Source: Deinococcales bacterium (GTDB lineage Bacteria; Deinococcota; Deinococci; Deinococcales; JAAFIG01). Taken from it: a stretch of 64,000 nucleotides of DNA. The notes under the pieces were generated by a model. It was not told the DNA's origin, did not search any database, and worked only from the letters and a program-made list of their open reading frames with translations. Position numbers and translations under genes: made by a program. Shown piece after piece: positions 48,354-56,931 of the stretch. The stretch covers positions 1-64,000 of the forward strand of contig JAAFIG010000027.1 in the NCBI GenBank assembly GCA_013298595.1. The letters are read 5' to 3'. Numbering within the stretch: the stretch's first letter is position 1; each line of letters opens with the position of its first letter.

Positions 48354-49946
48354 CTAGAACTCACCGCGTGCGAAGCTCGAGATGATATTTGGTGCGCTAC
48401 CATCGAAGCCAACAACATCCATCATTCCTGCATCTTTTGGGTCAGCAATGCTGAATTGAGTTGCGGTCATTCCGACCACCACAAGCCGCGCTGCAATACC
48501 CATCTTATCGCGGTATCGGCGTAGTGCTTCAAATGGATGTACCTTACCAAAGTACGTTTCGTTATCGGTGTAAATCACGAAGACATCGGCTTGTACGCCA
48601 TTCTCGAGTGCCCAGAGCATTGGTAAAGCGCAATCTGTTCCACCGAATGATTGGTTTTGCGTCTTGCGGAGTGCTGCCTCGAGTGAATCGTTAGCGCGGA
48701 TGCCAATGTCACGGAATGAATCCGAGAATCCCATGATGTGCGAGTGCTTTTCGCTGCGGAGTGTCAACATTGCCATGGCAGTGCTGGCAAGGTTTGGGGT
48801 GAGACCATGAACTCCTGCGATGTTGCCCCAAGTCATTGAGCCTGAAATATCCAAGCCCAAAACAAAGCGCTTTCCTGCTGGTTGAATCGTACCGAATGAA
48901 GTGTAAAACGCCTTCTCGAGCGCATCCACAATTTGTGGTACAACCTTCCAAGTACCATCGCCTTTGATGCTACGACCACCCTTATACACAAGCATTGCCT
49001 TGAGTGCATCAATTGGATGGATTCGACCCTTACGTAGCGCCTCGGCATCGGTGACTCGAGAAACAATTTGTTCAATGATTTCCCAAGCGCCCGGTACAAG
49101 CAACTCGTGCTTACCCAAGTTACCAAGGTTACGCAAAGTCCAAGTCAAACCGTTGTTCGCCAGCGCAGTGCGGTACACCTTCACACCTCGAGCATGAGTT
49201 GGAATGGCTTCGATAGGTAACTTGTACTCGCGCATAATTGCCGCAGCTTCCTTATCAGACTTTGCCTCGAGAGCCAACATATGACCACGCACAATGTTTA
49301 GTGTAGCATTGTTTGATTCAAGAACGCCATCCACAAGGTACTTAAAGAGCGCATTCCGAGTTGCATCGGCTGTCTTAGGGTGCGAAAGGCGCAACGCATC
49401 GGCTTGCGTCCAACCATCTCGAGACTTGTACTTCACAGCCCAGAGGGCAAGCTTCTCGAGTGGCATGGTTTCGTACACCTTCGCCACACCCGCTCGCGTC
49501 AGACGACCCCAACCACCGAACATTTGTACAAACTCGAGGAAGTGCAACAAGTGCGTACCTGTTCGAGCCACTTCTGGAAGGGCATCCCAAGCTGCCTTAC
49601 GGGTCGCAGAATCCACAGAGAGCTTCGCCACAGCAGCCAAAGCCACAAGTGTAGGCTCAACCTTAGGAGCGCGGTTGTAACGCACCACATCAAGAATAAT
49701 CTCGAGAGCAGTAGCACCCTCTAAAGTAGCGAAGTTACGCACGAAATCAGTCTCGAGCTTGGTTTGACGCGCTTCGGTGGCATAGAACGTACCTCCTTCA
49801 GTTCCTAAAATCAAAAATCGGAGGAAACGATTCGCATCAGTTACTGCGAAGACAAAACCGCCAGCATTATTTTGAACTTGGTCAGCTCGAGCCTTAACGA
49901 TTTGTGGTGTGTTATTTGGACGAAGTGCATTGATAAGGTGCTTCAT
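48354..49946 (-). CDS. rsr: Ro60-family TROVE domain protein (Rsr)
   Basis: MKHLINALRPNNTPQIVKARADQVQNNAGGFVFAVTDANRFLRFLILGTEGGTFYATE...; HEAT-like TROVE plus C-terminal VWA with DISGSM MIDAS; RBS AGGAGG. Confidence 0.93.
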   Translation of the reverse strand: MKHLINALRPNNTPQIVKARADQVQNNAGGFVFAVTDANRFLRFLILGTEGGTFYATEARQTKLETDFVRNFATLEGATALEIILDVVRYNRAPKVEPTLVALAAVAKLSVDSATRKAAWDALPEVARTGTHLLHFLEFVQMFGGWGRLTRAGVAKVYETMPLEKLALWAVKYKSRDGWTQADALRLSHPKTADATRNALFKYLVDGVLESNNATLNIVRGHMLALEAKSDKEAAAIMREYKLPIEAIPTHARGVKVYRTALANNGLTWTLRNLGNLGKHELLVPGAWEIIEQIVSRVTDAEALRKGRIHPIDALKAMLVYKGGRSIKGDGTWKVVPQIVDALEKAFYTSFGTIQPAGKRFVLGLDISGSMTWGNIAGVHGLTPNLASTAMAMLTLRSEKHSHIMGFSDSFRDIGIRANDSLEAALRKTQNQSFGGTDCALPMLWALENGVQADVFVIYTDNETYFGKVHPFEALRRYRDKMGIAARLVVVGMTATQFSIADPKDAGMMDVVGFDGSAPNIISSFARGEF

Positions 49947-50006: not shown

Positions 50007-50139
50007 TGGGGGCGTGGATTGGAGTCGAACCAATAAGAACCGATAACCCTATTTACAACGGCTCAGAAAGACTCGAGCAAGGGAACGAAAGAGGGAGAAA
50101 CCCACAAGTGTTCAAAGAACATCGTGGGAATTCCACGCC
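50007..50139 (-). ncRNA. Y-RNA/tRNA hybrid A: tRNA acceptor and T-arm with Ro60-binding-like hairpin, no recognisable D-arm
   Basis: GGCGTGG...CTTGCTC GAGTCTTTCT GAGCCG...AGGGTTATC...ATTGGTTCGACTCCAAT CCACGCC C CCA, immediately 5' of rsr. Confidence 0.6.
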
Positions 50140-50171
50140 CATAAAAAACAACTCGAATGCCAAAATACTGC

Positions 50172-50319
50172 TGGTTGGACAAGTAGGATTTGAACCTACA
50201 AGGGTTGCCCCAGACCTCCTTAAATAACCTTTCACCTTCGGCTCGAAACGAGCAAGGTGTGGCAAAAGGAAAGCTGCACAAGGCAGCTAAGTCCGCGTTT
50301 ACCGTTTCGCCATTGCCCA
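50172..50319 (-). tRNA. tRNA-Leu(UAA), class II, interrupted in the anticodon arm by a Ro60-binding-like hairpin of about 64 nt
   Basis: TGGGCAA TG GCG..CGC G GACTT [AGCTGCC...CACCTTGCTCG TTT CGAGCCGAAGGTGAAAGGTTA] TTTAAGG AGGTC T GGGGCAACCCTT GTAGGTTCAAATCCTAC TTGTCCA A CCA. Confidence 0.65.
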
Positions 50320-50329
50320 ATAAGAAAAG

Positions 50330-50459
50330 TGGTGGAGCGGGTGAGACTCGAACTCACGACCCGGCGATTAGAAGTCGATAACCCTCACGCTTCGGTTCTA
50401 CAAAAGAACAAGGTATGCAGAGGATGTTTTTCCTGCTCTGCCATCTGAGCTACCGCCCC
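50330..50459 (-). tRNA. tRNA-Arg(UCU) interrupted in the anticodon stem by a 54-nt Ro60-binding-like insert
   Basis: GGGGCGG TA GCTC..GAGC A GG [AAAAACATCCTCTGCATACCTTGTTCTTTTGTAGAACCGAAGCGTGAGGGTTAT] CGA CTTCTAA TCGCC ... GTGAGTTCGAGTCTCAC CCGCTCC A CCA; removing the insert gives a perfect 76-nt tRNA. Confidence 0.78.
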
Positions 50460-50463
50460 ACAT

Positions 50464-50549
50464 TGGAGGAATCGGAGGGATTTGAACCCTCGAGACTTCA
50501 GTCTTCCTTCTTAGCAGGAAGGTGCAATAAGCCACTCTGCCACGATTCC
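50464..50549 (-). tRNA. tRNA-Ser(GCU)
   Basis: GGAATCG...CTTCCTGCTAAGAAGG...GAGGGTTCAAATCCCTC CGATTCC T CCA. Confidence 0.88.
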
Positions 50550-50574
50550 ATACCGCTCGAGTTACCTCGAGCTT

Positions 50575-50652
50575 TGGCGAGTCTGACAGGATTTGAACCT
50601 GCATCAGTACGTTTTGGAGACGTATTCCCTTAGCCAGTCGGGATTCAGACTC
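50575..50652 (-). tRNA. tRNA-Trp(CCA)
   Basis: GAGTCTG...TACGT CTCCAAA ACGTA...GCAGGTTCAAATCCTGT CAGACTC G CCA. Confidence 0.88.
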
Positions 50653-50656
50653 ATGC

Positions 50657-51283
50657 TTAATCAGTTGTGGAAGCGGCTATGACAACAATCAAATTTTGTG
50701 TTGGGTGCTTTACAGTCCAAAGAAAACTCCCCCACCATTCATTGCCAGCATTAAAATATGTAGACCAATCATTACTCCATTCAAAAATTTCTAACTCCGA
50801 TTGCAAACCACCAAAAGCAGCTTGGTTGATCTGCTCAAAAAGTACATTCGCTTCCTCGTGATTGATGCGAATACCATAAGGCGTGTCCGAAAAAGCTTCA
50901 GCATAGCCTTGGTTTGAACCAGATTTGCTTCTCGAGTTATCCGCACTGATTTTCCAAACAGAAACAATTTTTTGTTTCTGCCAATCATAGGCACGCCCCA
51001 AGAAACGTTGCACAGAAATTTGTTCACCTCGAGCTTTATCTGGTTCGGTAATAATCTGAAAATAATCTTCACGTTTTTGATTGCGTTCTTGCAAAAGTGG
51101 TAAAAAATAATCATCGAGTTGTTGTGCTAAAACACCAAGAGCAAAAATTGCCGCTTGCTTATGAACTGCTGCGTTGACTGCTACCGATTCACAATCTATC
51201 AAAACATAATCCATAACAATATGCGCTGCTTTAGCTTTCTCGAGAAGTGTTTTTAGTGTGGGATTTGGAATTATTTCTTTCAT
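50657..51283 (-). CDS. hypothetical protein inside the tRNA array
   Basis: Intact 208-aa ORF between tRNA-Trp and tRNA-Ser; no family recognised. Confidence 0.7.
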   Translation of the reverse strand: MKEIIPNPTLKTLLEKAKAAHIVMDYVLIDCESVAVNAAVHKQAAIFALGVLAQQLDDYFLPLLQERNQKREDYFQIITEPDKARGEQISVQRFLGRAYDWQKQKIVSVWKISADNSRSKSGSNQGYAEAFSDTPYGIRINHEEANVLFEQINQAAFGGLQSELEIFEWSNDWSTYFNAGNEWWGSFLWTVKHPTQNLIVVIAASTTD

Positions 51284-51302
51284 ACCACAGAGTATAAGTT
51301 TT

Positions 51303-51389
51303 TGGAGGAAAGCAAGGGAATCGAACCCTTGAAGCTATTTACACCCAGCCGTTTTCAAGACGGTGTCCTCGACCTACCGGACGCTTTCC
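51303..51389 (-). tRNA. tRNA-Ser(UGA)
   Basis: GGAAAGC...CCGT CTTGAAA ACGG...AAGGGTTCGATTCCCTT GCTTTCC T CCA. Confidence 0.88.
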
Positions 51390-51394
51390 ATAAA

Positions 51395-51464
51395 AGACCT
51401 CGCTCGGAATTGAACCGAGACTCTTTGGTTTGCAGCCAAAGCCCATGCCGTCTGGCTCGAGATC
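51395..51464 (-). tRNA. tRNA-Cys(GCA), CCA not encoded
   Basis: GATCTCG...TTTGG CTGCAAA CCAAA...CTCGGTTCAATTCCGAG CGAGGTC T. Confidence 0.78.
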
Positions 51465-51469
51465 ATGAT

Positions 51470-51681
51470 TGGTGGAAGAGACGGGACTCGAACCCGCATA
51501 ACTAAGACTATCGGTATAGGAAAACTCGCTTCCTGCGGCAAGTTACAAACCCACTCGAGACTTGTCATCTCGAGTCGCCAGCCAGTGCATCCGCAACCCC
51601 CGATGGCTTTTGACCTGTCTTAGAACAATTAAGTTACCGTATTCAACGTTTTCGGTGCGCTCCCGTTTGCGCTACTCCCCC
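51470..51681 (-). tRNA. tRNA-like gene with about 136 extra nt; anticodon unassigned
   Basis: GGGGGAG TA GCGC..GCGC at the 5' end pairs with CTCTTCC A CCA after T-arm GCGGGTTCGAGTCCCGT; perfect internal helices CTAAGAC/GTCTTAG and ACTCGAGA/TCTCGAGT. Confidence 0.5.
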
Positions 51682-51692
51682 AATAATTTTAA

Positions 51693-51770
51693 TGGTGTTC
51701 CTTCAGGGACTCGAACCCAGACTTGTCAGTGTTTTAAGCACTGTGCCTCTACCAATTGGGCTAAAGAAAC
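51693..51770 (-). tRNA. tRNA with UAA (Leu) anticodon but short class-I variable loop
   Basis: GTTTCTT...CAGTG CTTAAAA CACTG ACAAGT ...TTCGAGT... AAGGAAC A CCA. Confidence 0.72.
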
Positions 51771-51771
51771 A

Positions 51772-51847
51772 TGGTGCGTCTGGTGGGAGTCGAACCCACA
51801 GATTCTCGGTTTTGAGGCGAGTGAGTGTGCCATTCCTCTACAAACGC
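51772..51847 (-). tRNA. tRNA with CAA (Leu) anticodon, class-I body
   Basis: GCGTTTG...CTCGC CTCAAAA CCGAG AATCT GTGGGTTCGACTCCCAC CAGACGC A CCA. Confidence 0.72.
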
Positions 51848-51877
51848 ATGATTCTCGAGATTATCCCCAAGAATTTT

Positions 51878-51953
51878 TGGTACGCCGAGCGGGACTCGAA
51901 CCCGCAAGCTCCTCGTTCTAAGCGAGGTGAGTTTACCATTTCTCTATCAGCGC
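51878..51953 (-). tRNA. tRNA with UAG (Leu) anticodon, class-I body
   Basis: GCGCTGA...CCTCG CTTAGAA CGAGG AGCTT GCGGGTTCGAGTCCCGC TCGGCGT A CCA. Confidence 0.75.
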
Positions 51954-51978
51954 ACAGACCCTCGAGACTCGAGGGTTA

Positions 51979-52055
51979 TGGTGTCCATGACGGGATTTGA
52001 ACCCGTAAATTCCTGTCGCTCAAACAGGTGACTTTACCAATTTGTCTACACGGAT
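51979..52055 (-). tRNA. tRNA with GAG (Leu) anticodon, class-I body
   Basis: ATCCGTG...CCTGT TTGAGCG ACAGG AATTT ACGGGTTCAAATCCCGT CATGGAC A CCA. Confidence 0.7.
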
Positions 52056-52067
52056 GTACTAAGAATT

Positions 52068-52192
52068 TTGGTGCATGAACCCATATGATTCATTGGTGCA
52101 TGAACCCATATGATTCATTGGTGCATGAACCCATATGATTCATTGGTGCATGAACCCATATGATTCATTGGTGCATGAACCCATATGATTCA
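52068..52192 (-). repeat. five tandem copies of a 25-bp unit abutting the 3' end of tRNA-Gly(GCC)
   Basis: (ttggtgcatgaacccatatgattca)x5 then ttggtgca; minus-strand unit ATGAATCATATGGGTTCATGCACCA ends with the tRNA's own TGCACCA. Confidence 0.97.
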
Positions 52193-52193
52193 T

Positions 52194-52269
52194 TGGTGCA
52201 GATTGGGAGAATCGAACTCCCGTTATTTGCATGGCAAGCAAGCGTCTTCAACCACTAGACGAAATCTGC
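52194..52269 (-). tRNA. tRNA-Gly(GCC)
   Basis: GCAGATT...TTGC TTGCCAT GCAA...GGGAGTTCGATTCTCCC AATCTGC A CCA. Confidence 0.85.
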
Positions 52270-52368
52270 AAAAAGCCTCTGCTTGTGTGGCAATTCTTTT
52301 AGCGGTGAATTGCCCTTTGCTCCCGCTCGAGCAAAGAAAAACAGAGGGGTTGCCCGCGTGTGCGGGTG

Positions 52369-52441
52369 TGGAGCAGAAGGACAGGATTCGCACCTGCATT
52401 GTCACCCGGAAAGGCGCATCTTGCTGTTAGAAGACTTCTGC
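52369..52441 (-). tRNA. divergent tRNA, anticodon uncertain (UUC/UCC-like); T-loop TGCGAAT, no G18G19
   Basis: GCAGAAG TCTT CTAACAGC AAGA ...GCGCCTTTCCGGGTG... GCAGG TGCGAAT CCTGT ..CTTCTGC T CCA. Confidence 0.6.
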
Positions 52442-52444
52442 ATT

Positions 52445-52520
52445 TGGAGCAGTCAGTGGGAATTGCACCCACATTCTCTGGTTGGAAGCCAGTAATCCTG
52501 AGCTGTTGGACGATGACTGC
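52445..52520 (-). tRNA. tRNA-Gly(UCC), non-canonical T-loop TGCAATT
   Basis: GCAGTCA...TCC AACAGCTCA GGA...CTGG CTTCCAA CCAG...GTGGG TGCAATT CCCAC TGACTGC T CCA. Confidence 0.75.
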
Positions 52521-52521
52521 A

Positions 52522-52599
52522 TGGAGGTTTTGACAGGAATTGAACCTGCGTTTTCTTGCTTACAAGGCAAGCGCTCGAGCCAACGTGAGCTTCAAAACC
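52522..52599 (-). tRNA. tRNA-Thr(UGU)
   Basis: GGTTTTG...CTTGC CTTGTAA GCAAG...GCAGGTTCAATTCCTGT CAAAACC T CCA. Confidence 0.87.
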
Positions 52600-52602
52600 A
52601 AA

Positions 52603-52678
52603 TGGTGGGTTCTTTCGGATTTGAACCGAAACCTCGACGATTAAAAGTCGTCTGCTCTGCCAGTTGAGCTAAAAACCC
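52603..52678 (-). tRNA. tRNA-Lys(UUU)
   Basis: GGGTTTT TAGCTC..GAGC AGACGA CTTTTAA TCGTC...TTCGGTTCAAATCCGAA AGAACCC A CCA. Confidence 0.9.
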
Positions 52679-52679
52679 G

Positions 52680-52754
52680 TGGTGATCTCGAGGGGAGTCG
52701 AACCCCTATTTCCGCATAGAGAGTGCAGCGTCGTAACCATTGGACGACAAGACC
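52680..52754 (-). tRNA. tRNA-Glu(CUC)
   Basis: GGTCTTG...GCA CTCTCTA TGC...AGGGGTTCGACTCCCCT CGAGATC A CCA. Confidence 0.83.
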
Positions 52755-52781
52755 ATGAGGCGCAAAACGCGCCAAGGATTT

Positions 52782-52856
52782 TGGTGATCTCGAGGAGAAT
52801 TGAACTCCTGTTTGTCGGGTGAAAACCGCGTGTCCTAGCCATTAGACGACGAGACC
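52782..52856 (-). tRNA. tRNA-Glu(UUC)
   Basis: GGTCTCG...GCGG TTTTCAC CCG...AGGAGTTCAATTCTCCT CGAGATC A CCA. Confidence 0.85.
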
Positions 52857-52859
52857 ATG

Positions 52860-52934
52860 TGGAAGGGAAACTGAGACTCGAACTCAGATTTGGCAGCTTC
52901 AAAGGCTGTTGCGTTACCAATTACGCTATTTCCC
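52860..52934 (-). tRNA. tRNA-Gln(UUG)
   Basis: GGGAAAT...CAGC CTTTGAA GCTG...CTGAGTTCGAGTCTCAG TTTCCCT T CCA. Confidence 0.85.
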
Positions 52935-52940
52935 TAGGGT

Positions 52941-53030
52941 AAAGACTCGAGCAAGTTTTGTATCACATGCAGGGTTTGAACCTGCTCTCCCTAAGGATTA
53001 ACCGATAACTGTGGTACTTCGGCTCGAGTT
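52941..53030 (-). ncRNA. candidate Y RNA D (Ro60-binding stem plus T-arm-like module)
   Basis: 5' ACTCGAGC-C-GAAGTACCACAGTTATC ... GCAGGTTCAAACCCTGC ATGTGATACAAAACTT GCTCGAGT CTTT; 8-bp terminal helix, GTACCAC/GTGATAC helix. Confidence 0.75.
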
Positions 53031-53034
53031 AATT

Positions 53035-53111
53035 TGGTCGGTGGGACTCGGAGTTGAACCGAAACCTCTTGTTCTTCAGACAAGCGTGCAGACCCGCTAC
53101 ACCATCCCCCG
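53035..53111 (-). tRNA. tRNA-Phe(GAA) with bulged A in acceptor stem
   Basis: CGGGGGA...CTTGT CTGAAGA ACAAG...TTCGGTTCAACTCCGAG TCCCaCCG A CCA. Confidence 0.72.
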
Positions 53112-53140
53112 ATTACGAACCCGCTTCCGTCGGGGCGTAT

Positions 53141-53213
53141 TGGGTGCGGTGGTGGGAGTTGAACCCACCAGCCGAGCTTATGAGACTCGGCGCATCACCG
53201 GACGCACACCGCA
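53141..53213 (-). tRNA. tRNA(CAU), Met or lysidine-Ile type
   Basis: TGCGGTG...CGAGT CTCATAA GCTCG...GTGGGTTCAACTCCCAC CACCGCA C CCA. Confidence 0.78.
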
Positions 53214-53266
53214 GCATATATCATTCAGTAAATTACAAAATATCGAAAGAGTAGTATATTATTTTT

Positions 53267-53740
53267 ATGAATAGCATAATGATTCGACCTGCCCAAGAAT
53301 CTGATCTCGAAATTCTTTTTCAATATCAACTTGATGACGATTACAACAAGATGGCAGCGTTTGGTACAGCAAATCCAAAAGATAAAACAGCTTTTTTGGC
53401 GCACAGAAGAAAGATTATTGCAGACCCTGATTGCTTGTTCTATACTGTTGAATGGAATCAAACACCAATCGGAACAGTTGGGAGTTTTTGGTTCGATGGT
53501 GAGCGCGACCTTGGTTACGGCATTGCTAAAGAGTATTGGCGTAAAGGACTGACGACACAAGCTGTACAAGCGTTTTTACCCATTGAACCAATCAGACCCT
53601 TGGGCGCTCGGGTTGCTGTTCACAATGCTGCTTCAATTCGTATCCTCGAGAAATGCGGATTTCAGCGAATCGGTTCAGACAAAGGATTCTCTGACTTTTT
53701 GAACCGTGAAGTTGAAGAGCATATCTATTCGCTACGCTGA
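53267..53740 (+). CDS. GNAT acetyltransferase
   Basis: MIRPAQESDLEILFQYQ ... DLGYGIAKEYWRKGLTTQAVQAFL ... RVAVHNAASIRILEKCGFQRIG. Confidence 0.9.
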   Translation: MNSIMIRPAQESDLEILFQYQLDDDYNKMAAFGTANPKDKTAFLAHRRKIIADPDCLFYTVEWNQTPIGTVGSFWFDGERDLGYGIAKEYWRKGLTTQAVQAFLPIEPIRPLGARVAVHNAASIRILEKCGFQRIGSDKGFSDFLNREVEEHIYSLR

Positions 53741-53752
53741 AAAGATTAACTC

Positions 53753-53826
53753 TGGTCGAAGATGATGGAATCGAACCATCGTTGCCTGCATATCAGACAG
53801 GTGTCCTACCATTGGACGAATCTTCG
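53753..53826 (-). tRNA. tRNA-Ile(GAU)
   Basis: CGAAGAT...CCTGT CTGATAT GCAGG...GATGGTTCGATTCCATC ATCTTCG A CCA. Confidence 0.83.
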
Positions 53827-53884
53827 TTTCTCCTCGAGCGTGTTGGAGGTAATACTCGAGGGGTGCATCCCAAAAAGGATGCTC

Positions 53885-53960
53885 TGGTCGGCGCGGTAGG
53901 GGTCGAACCTACGACAACTGCTTTGTAAGAACAGCACTGCTACCACTGAGTTACGCGCCG
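53885..53960 (-). tRNA. tRNA-Val(UAC)
   Basis: CGGCGCG...CTGTT CTTACAA AGCAG...GTAGGTTCGACCCCTAC CGCGCCG A CCA. Confidence 0.87.
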
Positions 53961-53992
53961 TGGAACTCGAGAATAATGTGGTTCTCGAGATA

Positions 53993-54069
53993 TGGTGGAA
54001 AAGGTCGGAGTCGAACCGACAACCATCTCTGTGCAAAAGAGGCGCTCTCCCAAATTGAGCTACTTCCCC
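53993..54069 (-). tRNA. tRNA-Ala(UGC)
   Basis: GGGGAAG TAGCTC...CTCT TTTGCAC AGAG...GTCGGTTCGACTCCGAC CTTTTCC A CCA. Confidence 0.88.
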
Positions 54070-54140
54070 ATGTGTGAACTGGTACGACTTCCCCGTATTT
54101 GATTCAGGCTTGAGTGCAGTCATAAACCACACTCAAGCGT

Positions 54141-54216
54141 TGGTCGAGCGTGCAAGAATTGAACTTGCCTATGTCCTGTTTCCAAAACAGGAGACCCTCC
54201 TTGAGTCCGACGCTCG
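54141..54216 (-). tRNA. tRNA-Pro(UGG)
   Basis: CGAGCGT...CCTGT TTTGGAA ACAGG...GCAAGTTCAATTCTTGC ACGCTCG A CCA. Confidence 0.86.
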
Positions 54217-54225
54217 AGAATGAAG

Positions 54226-54300
54226 TGAAACTACAAAGGATTTGAACCTTTACTCCGTCGTTTAAGAGACGACTGCTTTACCTTTAAGCTACGATTCCGT
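54226..54300 (-). tRNA. degenerate tRNA-Lys(CUU)-like, poor acceptor stem, no CCA
   Basis: GGAATCG TAGCTTAAAGGTAAAGC A GTCGT CTCTTAA ACGAC...AAAGGTTCAAATCCTTT; acceptor 3' strand GTAGTTT does not pair well. Confidence 0.5.
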
Positions 54301-54304
54301 TAAG

Positions 54305-54377
54305 AGACCTCGGCAAGATTCGCACTTGCATCCTCGAGCTTCGCACGCTCGCGCTCGTCTATTTGAGCTTCGGGGTC
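54305..54377 (-). tRNA. tRNA with GCG (Arg) anticodon, T-loop TGCGAAT, no CCA
   Basis: GACCCCG AA GCTC AAATAGAC GAGC ..CGAGC GTGCGAA GCTCG..GCAAG TGCGAAT CTTGC CGAGGTC T. Confidence 0.6.
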
Positions 54378-54380
54378 ATG

Positions 54381-54430
54381 TGGTGAACTGGTCATGTCAC
54401 AGGTTTGGTGAACTGGTCATGTCACAGGTT
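54381..54430 (-). repeat. two tandem copies of a 25-bp unit abutting the 3' end of tRNA-Arg(UCU)
   Basis: (tggtgaactggtcatgtcacaggtt)x2 followed by tggtgaac of the tRNA 3' end. Confidence 0.95.
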
Positions 54431-54507
54431 TGGTGAACCGAGCAGGACTCGAACCTGCGGCTTCCATGTTAGAAGCATGGCACTCTGTTCCGCTGAGTTA
54501 TCGGTTC
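54431..54507 (-). tRNA. tRNA-Arg(UCU), uninterrupted second copy
   Basis: GAACCGA TAACTC...CCATG CTTCTAA CATGG...GCAGGTTCGAGTCCTGC TCGGTTC A CCA. Confidence 0.88.
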
Positions 54508-54546
54508 ATGATGCCCATGTATCACTGGTTCATGTTGCCCATGTAT
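54503..54546 (-). repeat. 24-bp direct repeat at the 5' flank of tRNA-Arg(UCU)
   Basis: ggttcatgatgcccatgtat cact ggttcatgttgcccatgtat. Confidence 0.9.
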
Positions 54547-54550
54547 TTTT

Positions 54551-54637
54551 TGCCTCGAGCAAGTTGTGGTCTGGGGTTGCGGTTTCCCGCGTCAAAATTG
54601 GAAGTTTTGGATAACCCAGTACCTTCGGCTCGAGAGG
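54551..54637 (-). ncRNA. candidate Y RNA H
   Basis: 5' CTCGAGC-C-GAAGGTACTGGGTTATCC ... AACCCCAGACCACAACTT GCTCGAG GCAAAAAA. Confidence 0.72.
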
Positions 54638-54645
54638 AAATTTGG

Positions 54646-54721
54646 TGGTGAATCGGACAGGACTCGAACCTGCAACCGCTGCGTTCGAAGCGCAGAACTC
54701 TATCCGTTGAGCTACCGATTC
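54646..54721 (-). tRNA. tRNA-Arg(UCG)
   Basis: GAATCGG TAGCTC...CTGCG CTTCGAA CGCAG...GCAGGTTCGAGTCCTGT CCGATTC A CCA. Confidence 0.88.
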
Positions 54722-54725
54722 TTGA

Positions 54726-54787
54726 TTGCTCGAGCAAGTGATTATAGCACGGGTGTTTCAAGATAACCGTGGTACTTCGGCTCGAGT
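54726..54787 (-). ncRNA. candidate short Y RNA E
   Basis: 5' CTCGAGC-C-GAAGTACCACGGTTATCTTGAAACACCCGTGCTATAATCACTT GCTCGAG; CCACGG/CCGTG helix. Confidence 0.68.
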
Positions 54788-54788
54788 T

Positions 54789-55223
54789 TTATTCTTTTTT
54801 GCGCCGTGATTTTAATAGCATCTGAATGCGGTCAAACAATAACTTAAATCCATGCTCGAGTACCCATAAATAGGCAAATAAGCAAAGGACAATAAAGTAC
54901 ATCACTTGATGATTCTGTCCTGTAAAAAATACCCACCCGATTGCTGTACTTGCTCCTATGATTGTACATCTGGCTAAACCAGGACGTGTTTTTCTATGGC
55001 GATAAATCTCAAAAATGCTGATGCCTACAAATAAGGCAATATCCCATCGCCATAAGCTCGAGAAATACCATTGAATGGGTTGTGCGTAAAAAGCAATAGT
55101 GACAAAGCACAACACTGGGTAGAGCAGAATTTCCCAAGACTCGAGTGGTTCGTTGGTCACGAGCTTAGCATACTGTTCGATTCTGGTTTTACATGAGTTA
55201 CTGTGAGCAACTGAGCGCTGCAT
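54789..55223 (-). CDS. hypothetical membrane protein (annotated ATG lies inside Y RNA F, so the real start may be further 3')
   Basis: Hydrophobic ORF with several TM segments. Confidence 0.55.
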   Translation of the reverse strand: MQRSVAHSNSCKTRIEQYAKLVTNEPLESWEILLYPVLCFVTIAFYAQPIQWYFSSLWRWDIALFVGISIFEIYRHRKTRPGLARCTIIGASTAIGWVFFTGQNHQVMYFIVLCLFAYLWVLEHGFKLLFDRIQMLLKSRRKKE

Positions 55224-55264
55224 GGGATATTTTGAAGATAACCATGCAGCATCGGCTCAAAGTA
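55201..55264 (-). ncRNA. candidate short Y RNA F
   Basis: 5' TGAGC-C-GATGCTGCATGGTTATCTTCAAAATATCCCATGCAGCGCTCAGTT GCTCA; 9-bp GCTGCATGG/CCATGCAGC helix. Confidence 0.68.
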
Positions 55265-55273
55265 GTTCGGTAG

Positions 55274-55323
55274 ACAAGTTTCCGCATTGGTACTGCGAAC
55301 AAGTTTCCGCATTGGTACTGCGA
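55274..55323 (-). repeat. two tandem copies of a 25-bp unit at the 3' end of Y RNA G
   Basis: (acaagtttccgcattggtactgcga)x2 plus a partial third; minus-strand unit contains ACTTGTTCGCAG and TACCA. Confidence 0.95.
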
Positions 55324-55390
55324 ACAAGTGATTTCTCGAGGGAATTCAATTCCATTAAAAGGGGATAACCCTCGAGATTCGGCTCACAGT
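55318..55390 (-). ncRNA. candidate short Y RNA G
   Basis: 5' TGTGAGC-C-GAATCTCGAGGGTTATCCCC...CCCTCGAGAAATCACTT GTTCGCA; 9-bp TCTCGAGGG/CCCTCGAGA helix and 7-bp terminal helix. Confidence 0.68.
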
Positions 55391-55432
55391 GAAAACCGTA
55401 GGGCGAATATTGTATTCGCCCAATAACACAAG

Positions 55433-56242
55433 TTAATCCAAGAACACCATGTTCTTCGCGGCTCGAGCTTGATGTTCGGTGTTCATGATGACCCGATGCC
55501 AACCACGTAAGTAAATCGTGGCATGGTCTGGGTGTGAAACTGCACCTCGAGCATATACTCCTGCACCGCGCATCATGGTTTTGAATTGAATGATGCTTGC
55601 ACTTAAGTTTCGTTTCAAAAGTTCTTGGTATTCTTGCTCAGTCAAACCAAGTGGGTATTTTGGAGACACATACACAAGTTCGCCACCTGTGCGGTACGCA
55701 TTCTCGAGCCAGTGCGGTTTGCCACGTCCTCGAGAAATGGGTTCGTTTTGCAGTACAAATTTCTCGGCAACAATTAAGCGTGGTTCGGGAATAAAAAACC
55801 ATTCGCCTTGGCGGATAAATGCAGTAGTGTGGCGGGCAAATCGTTCTTTGCTTTTCAAGGGCGCATCGCGTAACTCAGCAGGGCGCAGCGCATTCATGGC
55901 AGTGACAACATTGCTGACACTTTGTCCAGGAACAGCGCAAGTAAACCAGTGGCGCTCATCATGACCGCATAAGAATTTGTCTTTGTTACCTTCTTGACGT
56001 GCCATTAAAAGCAGGTGACGCAAGTTGCGTTGGATGTCCAGTACCTCGAGTTGAGGAATGTTCTGTTCGGGAATGCGGAGTTTGAAGTATTGTCCGTGCT
56101 TATCATTTGCAATGTCTATGCTGAATTCTGGGTGAAGCAGTCGCGGTGTGCCACGCCAAGAGTTTGACCATCGGCTGGGGAGGAATTCGATTTTGGCTCG
56201 AGCGCCGATTCGCTCAAATTTTTGGATCAAGTGTGTGTCCAT
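55433..56242 (-). CDS. conserved-looking hypothetical protein in the tRNA/Ro60 island
   Basis: Intact 269-aa soluble ORF with FLCGHDERHWFTCAVPGQSVSNVVTAMNALRP. Confidence 0.7.
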   Translation of the reverse strand: MDTHLIQKFERIGARAKIEFLPSRWSNSWRGTPRLLHPEFSIDIANDKHGQYFKLRIPEQNIPQLEVLDIQRNLRHLLLMARQEGNKDKFLCGHDERHWFTCAVPGQSVSNVVTAMNALRPAELRDAPLKSKERFARHTTAFIRQGEWFFIPEPRLIVAEKFVLQNEPISRGRGKPHWLENAYRTGGELVYVSPKYPLGLTEQEYQELLKRNLSASIIQFKTMMRGAGVYARGAVSHPDHATIYLRGWHRVIMNTEHQARAAKNMVFLD

Positions 56243-56278
56243 ACACTTCCTTTGTGTGAATGATTGGCTTATTGCCGT

Positions 56279-56344
56279 TTATTCGCGCTCAGGAAATTTT
56301 TTCTCGAGTCGTCGAATTGCCAGTGCTTGGGGTTTCCTTGTCAT
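56279..56344 (-). CDS. possible 21-aa basic peptide
   Basis: MTRKPQALAIRRLEKKFPERE with GGAG RBS just upstream, 5' of 55433-56242. Confidence 0.35.
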   Translation of the reverse strand: MTRKPQALAIRRLEKKFPERE

Positions 56345-56392
56345 GGTGTTTCTCCTTCTCGAGTGGGCTTAGGGTTGAGTTGCGGGTTTTTT

Positions 56393-56467
56393 TGGCGGTT
56401 CTAACGGGAATCGAACCCGTATTGCCTGAGAGACAGTCAGGTATCGTAGCCGTTGGAACATAGAACC
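56393..56467 (-). tRNA. tRNA-Asp(GUC)
   Basis: GGTTCTA...CCTGA CTGTCTC TCAGG...ACGGGTTCGATTCCCGT TAGAACC G CCA. Confidence 0.88.
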
Positions 56468-56470
56468 TTA

Positions 56471-56547
56471 TGGCTGACTCGGCAGGGATCGAACCTGCGA
56501 CTTTCTGATTAACAGTCAGATGCTGCTACCAACTGAGCTACGAGTCA
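56471..56547 (-). tRNA. tRNA-Asn(GUU)
   Basis: TGACTCG TAGCTC...CTGA CTGTTAA TCAG...GCAGGTTCGATCCCTGC CGAGTCA G CCA. Confidence 0.9.
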
Positions 56548-56553
56548 ATAAAA

Positions 56554-56636
56554 TGGGTGCGGAAGGATTTGAACCTCCATTGTCTTTTGGACGCTTGGGC
56601 TACAACCAAGTGCAATAGCCGTTCTGCCACACACCC
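56554..56636 (-). tRNA. tRNA-Tyr(GUA), class II, CCA not encoded
   Basis: GGGTGTG TGGCAGAACGG...CTTGG TTGTAGC CCAAG CGTCCAAAAGACAAT GGAGGTTCAAATCCTTC CGCACCC A. Confidence 0.83.
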
Positions 56637-56855
56637 TAATGGTACTTGCTCGAGGTGTACGCCTTCGAGCGTGTATCGCCTCTTGAATAATCGTGATGTA
56701 CCGTACAGCACATAAAATCACGTTTTCTCGAGGAGAAAATTTTGGCATTCGAGTTGTCAAGGTTCGCACTCGGGACAAGTTTTAGTTGCCGCAAGCAGTT
56801 TGGGTGTATTTTCTTGCTTCTCGAGGACACGAATTCTCGAGGTTGCTTACACCTT

Positions 56856-56931
56856 TGGGTTCATCGTCGGGAATCGCACCCGAGTTTCTAGGGTCACAAC
56901 CTAGCGTCCTCTCTGTTAGACGACAACGAAC
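56856..56931 (-). tRNA. tRNA-His(GUG), G-1:C73 present, T-loop TGCGATT
   Basis: G TTCGTTG TC GTC TAACAGAGA GGAC...CTAGG TTGTGAC CCTAG...TCGGG TGCGATT CCCGA CGATGAA C CCA. Confidence 0.82.

Follow-up and report, generated by a model that had tools for sequence, protein, structure and literature searches.

The window analysed here, by which we mean the whole 64,000-nucleotide stretch of Deinococcales DNA, contains on its minus strand a tRNA array (50464..56930) of about 28-30 tRNA genes that ends in three unusual elements, referred to below as chimeras A, B and C, followed by rsr, which encodes the Ro60 orthologue (48354..49946, minus strand; 530 aa). The rsr gene lies approximately 400 nt downstream of chimera A, with B and C between them, and is the sole TROVE gene found in this genome. 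Its product matched NF041674 over the full length at 870.9 bits (cut-off 900), has a TROVE and a Ro60 vWA domain, and has the Rsr of D. radiodurans (2nvo, E 1.8e-208) as its nearest solved structure. Four free-standing Y RNA-like elements with the ordinary strand order are located within the array, upstream of A and on the same minus strand (52949..53025, which has a T arm, 54557..54631, 54732..54783 and 55322..55385). The array also has an uninterrupted tRNA-Arg(UCU) gene (54431..54507, minus strand), another is found at G000:C13:7981, and a full set of tRNAs, tRNA-Arg(UCU) included, is encoded in the genome outside the array, so that chimera A is dispensable for decoding.

Several other features of the array and window were recorded. 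A tRNA-like element at 51683-51470 (minus strand), with counterparts in two of the compared contigs (L010 3501-3712 and L011 4345-4132), has tRNA-like ends (D arm, T arm and CCA) around a strongly conserved insert of about 140 nt in which no Ro motif was seen. This element had no match in Rfam and its 20-nt core had no exact match in the viral contigs; it is possibly another unnamed structured RNA built on a tRNA scaffold. An ORF inside the array (55433-56242, minus strand), present at the same place in L011, had no Pfam or NCBIfam match. Between two tRNA genes there is a tandem repeat with a unit of about 26 nt (CACCAATGAATCATATGGGTTCATG; 52070-52190) that copies a tRNA 3' end. The palindrome CTCGAG is highly iterated, occurring 388 times in the window, evenly spread, versus about 16 expected, and is part of the Ro stems as well.

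Chimera A (50330..50459, minus strand, 130 nt) combines a tRNA-Arg(UCU)-like gene with a capped Ro-binding stem. It has a 7-bp acceptor (GGGGCGG/CCGCTCC), a D arm, a T arm and an encoded CCA. There is no continuous cloverleaf in the gene, as it is interrupted between tRNA positions 28 and 29 by a 54-nt insert (50378..50431, minus strand; positions 29-82) and becomes intact only after in silico removal of this insert. The first-pass annotation had claimed that such a removal leaves a perfect 76-nt tRNA-Arg(UCU), and ARAGORN bears this out, making the same call for the equivalent products of the orthologues in two relatives (75 nt in G001 and 77 nt in G002). The anticodon hairpin CGA-CUUCUAA-UCG (UCU; 50365..50377, minus strand) has the same sequence in both relatives.

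The second part of that annotation, a circularly permuted Ro-binding helix within the insert, is likewise supported, by the motif, a covariance model and covariation. In DNA letters the insert reads CTTGTTC-TTTTGTA-GAACCGAAG...GAGGGTTAT, the middle 7 nt forming the cap. The putative stem (50377..50425, minus strand) comprises a basal helix, AUCCUC/GAGGGU, CUUGUUC...GAACCGAAG with its bulged C, and then GUUAUC. The strands of the Ro helix are in reversed order (CUUGUUC, cap, GAACCGAAG...GAGGGUUAU), and the cap closes the helix on the side where Y RNAs are open. The stem of A scored 61.2 bits with R1, a covariance model built from the Deinococcales elements. Chimera A is not alone in the window, as B and C have the same capped stem. 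Chimera B (50175..50319, minus strand; R1 56.2 bits) is built on a Leu-like tRNA body (TGGGCAA/TTGTCCA) to which a further hairpin is added, and is spanned by a tRNA model at 34.2 bits, while chimera C (approximately 50008..50140, minus strand; R1 49.7 bits) has a reduced tRNA body consisting of the acceptor and T arm only. The permuted motif occurs three times in the 64 kb, each time in this cluster and within 400 nt, versus none in shuffled sequences, and the permuted-stem covariance model found only those three places in the whole genome.

The array, chimeras A and B and rsr are all retained, with A beside rsr, in a member of the same genus (G001, a JAAFJQ01 MAG) and in one of the same family (G002, a JANYHH01 MAG). 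Chimera A and its G002 orthologue have about 90-93% identity in two blocks, whereas most of the other array blocks that aligned have 67-90% and rsr has 68%. Decay in relatives, which the first-pass annotation had held would speak against its proposal, was not what we observed; few stretches of the array are as well conserved as chimera A. The only part of A that is enlarged in G002, by about 100 nt, is the cap loop. Next to the insert, the pairs read GG/CC both in the window and in G002 and GA/UC in G001, a compensatory change of G28-C42 to A28-U42. The G001 genome has two extra copies, A3 and A4, in which the anticodon arm is shortened and the acceptor, D and T arms and Ro stem are retained; A4 has no CCA. 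As A4 is solitary, with a tRNA-Ser upstream and a coding region downstream, it fixes the phase of the element. We rejected the alternative phase, in which tandem YrlA RNAs are read across adjacent chimeras, since the chimeras' own acceptors pair at 7 of 7 positions, a complete tRNA-Ser precedes A in the window and A4 stands alone.

To look beyond the Deinococcales, rsr loci of other phyla, mostly MAGs and viral contigs, were retrieved with an Rsr alignment; a scan of the contigs with a single Rsr protein as query gave no matches. Genes for rsr were present in 348 phage records and in at least 171 IMG/VR contigs. In several phyla rsr lies inside a large tRNA array (L123 and L128 from Bradyrhizobium, L129 from Polyangium, L119, L120 and L126), and the arrays at rsr loci comprise 33 and 31 tRNAs in Bradyrhizobium, 27 in Polyangium, 12 in Verrucomicrobia and 10 in a delta-proteobacterium. 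One rsr-bearing viral contig also has five type-P5 twister ribozymes (L178 1380-3355). Matches to R1 were found beside rsr in several of these loci, flanked by tRNA bodies, and the same architecture occurs beside rsr in Verrucomicrobiota, Opitutae, a delta-proteobacterium, Polyangium fumosum and several phage contigs. Some of these chimeras are spanned by a tRNA model (L129 11848-11970, 47.8 bits; L010 6528-6650, 45.9 bits; phage contigs L210, L145 and L206), and 27 of 41 stem hits have their own acceptor (7/7) and T stem (5/5) at suitable spacing, versus 0.51 expected from shuffled flanks. The L129 chimera is an A-type element of Polyangium fumosum DSM 14668 (NZ_SSMQ01000045.1). Most chimeras of other phyla have no usable anticodon arm.

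Covariation supporting the predicted chimera fold is strong. In the permuted stem, 94% of cells are paired across 17 sequences from several phyla, with 37 double changes versus 12.9 in shuffled alignments (0/500), and in the whole fold, based on 12 rotated chimeras, 93.6% are paired with 22 double-change pairs (0/500), shuffle statistics that are inflated by the relatedness of the sequences, while controls with a slid register drop to about 25-56%. Covariation was also found in a set of 10 permuted stems. In contrast, the minimum free energy fold of A as a single sequence lacks the Ro stem and has -40.9 kcal/mol, versus about -35.0 kcal/mol for the proposed fold, with a z-score of -0.06, so that the support for the predicted structure is comparative, not energetic. 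An alternative hairpin, GCAGAG/CUCUGC, is common to A in the window, G001 and G002, but since it is absent by eye from A3, A4 and the Polyangium chimera we make no claim of a switch. These data also bear on whether A is a decayed tRNA pseudogene into which a Y RNA fragment was inserted. The tRNA set outside the array is complete and some sister copies are degenerate, which speaks for such an origin; nevertheless, we consider it very improbable, based on the high conservation of A, the compensatory changes and the recurrence of the architecture across phyla, and it is already contradicted by the covariation.

The first-pass annotation knew of no precedent for such an RNA, which is not strictly correct, as the known YrlA RNAs already have a tRNA-like domain. 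In YrlA, D, T and acceptor arms have been described together with a basal stem that binds Ro (PMC8394870), and YrlA can be superposed on tRNA once a circular permutation is allowed for (PMC11472068), making chimera A the inverse permutant of a known RNA class. Like YrlA-type Y RNA (Rfam RF02553), chimera A has the Ro-binding helix with the conserved CCGAAG/CUUG and bulged C, the GGUUAUC strand, a tRNA-like domain of acceptor, D and T arms in the same cyclic order, and a location beside rsr. However, YrlA has 5' and 3' ends that pair in the Ro stem, a short loop closing the acceptor and no free CCA, whereas chimera A ends at the acceptor with CCA and its Ro stem is capped. Chimera A reached just 17-20 bits with the Rfam YrlA model, below the gathering score of 69, but this low score is uninformative because a permuted RNA cannot match colinearly. 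It scored 28.5 bits with the Rfam tmRNA model, versus a gathering score of 47, and ARAGORN reported no tmRNA.

A relationship by permutation is indicated by a further model, R3, trained only on the 12 chimeras after they had been cut in the cap and read round through the acceptor. With E-values that are rough, as for any of our purpose-built models, R3 picked out YrlA-like RNAs of the ordinary order next to rsr. These were in mycobacteriophage Sparky (63.9 bits, E 2.5e-12, with UUCG closing the acceptor), in Bradyrhizobium (E 3.2e-9 and 1.6e-8, one with a GAAA closure) and in phage contig L161 (E 2.5e-17), with further matches in others. Because R3 also matches across adjacent tandem chimeras (L010 6588-6719) and, in part, plain tRNAs, a hit was taken as YrlA-like only if it lay next to rsr and contained a Ro motif. 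The chimeras and the ordinary YrlA-like RNAs have an identical cyclic order of parts, including the AAAAC linker from the D arm to the Ro strand. That a model from rotated chimeras alone finds ordinary-order RNAs beside rsr argues that chimera A is a circular permutation of YrlA; as its ends are at the acceptor, we regard it as a permuted relative of this known class and not as a YrlA proper. The pairs 27-28/42-43 that flank the insert are present, in a tRNA-like register, in 20 of 27 ordinary YrlA-like RNAs. As these RNAs cannot be spliced into a tRNA, the flanking pairs of the chimera are explained by the Y RNA fold itself.

This last point is relevant to the choice that the first-pass annotation had left between a new small intervening sequence and a stable tRNA-Y RNA chimera, of which the latter is supported and the former is made less likely. 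Under the former, the 54 nt would be excised and an enzyme such as RtcB would join the halves, to give a functional tRNA-Arg(UCU) and a linear or circular Ro-binding RNA. Consistent with this are the perfect tRNAs produced by joining the exons in three genomes, the compensatory change at 28-42 in G001, the two RtcB genes in the genome, and three phage contigs whose chimeras, split at this position as well, become Cys(GCA) (L145), Thr(UGU) (L195) and Ile(GAU) (L210) once the insert is taken out. We nonetheless consider excision unlikely, as the tRNA-splicing endonuclease (PF01974) was not found in the genome, which is 94% complete, while archaeal controls were positive; the Ro stem is kept in all of the copies, even where the anticodon arm is unusable (A3, A4 and most chimeras of other phyla) or the CCA is missing (A4); the flanking pairs are kept in ordinary YrlAs, which excision cannot turn into tRNA; and tRNA-Arg(UCU) is supplied twice elsewhere. 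That the gene gives two RNAs, a joined and working tRNA-Arg(UCU) and a small, possibly circular, Rsr-binding RNA, seems quite unlikely; if true, the insert would be a bacterial tRNA intron of a new, protein-spliced kind that yields a Y RNA. Known tRNA introns, both group I and archaeal-type, similarly split a tRNA gene near the anticodon, but differ from the insert of A in that it is 54 nt long, lies at 28/29, has a conserved Ro-binding stem and occurs in a genome where no splicing endonuclease was found. A group I intron was rejected, in agreement with the earlier remark that the insert is too small, since 54 nt compares with a catalytic core of about 200 nt or more and there was no Rfam intron match in the window.

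Alongside the observed anatomy, conservation, covariation, linkage to rsr and permutation homology, we think it probable that chimera A gives rise to a stable Y RNA that is scaffolded by a tRNA and binds Rsr. Such an RNA would share its transcription with the tRNA array, and the enzymes that normally mature tRNAs (RNase P and 3' processing) would trim its ends. Acceptor, D arm, T arm and anticodon hairpin, which make up the tRNA body, would remain folded, with the capped Ro stem projecting as a third helix from the anticodon stem at 28/29, and the proposed three-way junction of Ro stem, anticodon hairpin and tRNA body would be the Y RNA fold itself. Based on its motif and position, the Ro stem would be bound by the Rsr encoded downstream. 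The tRNA body would most likely be an effector domain, as in YrlA, that may tether Rsr to tRNA-recognising partners or PNPase, or act as a decoy for tRNA-damaging enzymes. Counting against a stable Y RNA is the preference of the single sequence for another fold by free energy.

Since all three A orthologues have kept their anticodon hairpin and CCA intact, there is room for a tRNA function. The unspliced RNA could be bifunctional, being charged or read by its anticodon as a tRNA while bound by Rsr, or acting as an anticodon-nuclease decoy through the retained hairpin. The invariance of this hairpin among the A orthologues favours such roles, as do the tRNA-like 7-nt-loop hairpins that directly follow GGUUAUC in many phage YrlA-like RNAs. 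Against them stand the C at position 20 of chimera A, where A20 is an identity element for Arg in E. coli, and the lack of the loop in other chimeras; overall we view bifunctionality as doubtful. A published proposal that the tRNA-like domain of YrlA could compete for anticodon nuclease (PMC7790460) is in its favour. Hairpins with a CUNNNAA loop were seen after GGUUAUC in both topologies, with the anticodons UCU, UGU, GUU, GCU, GAU and UCC (L010 107, L130 ~8640, L155 7753, L161 10465, L166 9914, L186 9872, L195 7549 and others). These hairpins of the Y RNA-like elements might be anticodon decoys.

The proposed tRNA-scaffolded Y RNA may be compared with two other systems. The D. radiodurans Y RNA-Rsr-PNPase complex (RYPER) has an orthologous Rsr and Y RNA genes near rsr; its Y RNA, however, is in the literature drawn on here a scaffold that joins Rsr to PNPase, with no mention of a tRNA body bearing CCA. 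In archaea, a TROVE gene is present in 20 of 29 tRNA clusters, resembling the rsr genes within the bacterial and phage arrays here, but the part of that source drawn on describes no embedded Ro stem (PMC6333295). YrlA and its inverse are natural circular permutants of one RNA; their loci are similar, and they sometimes share a cluster with free-standing Y RNAs. Such permutants are direct evidence for tRNA genes as the base on which YrlA-type Y RNAs are built. They also allow the purpose of tRNA mimicry to be tested, as the inverse form could in principle meet the CCA-adding enzyme, synthetases, EF-Tu and RNase P, and they link Ro60 with the tRNA arrays of bacteria and phages.
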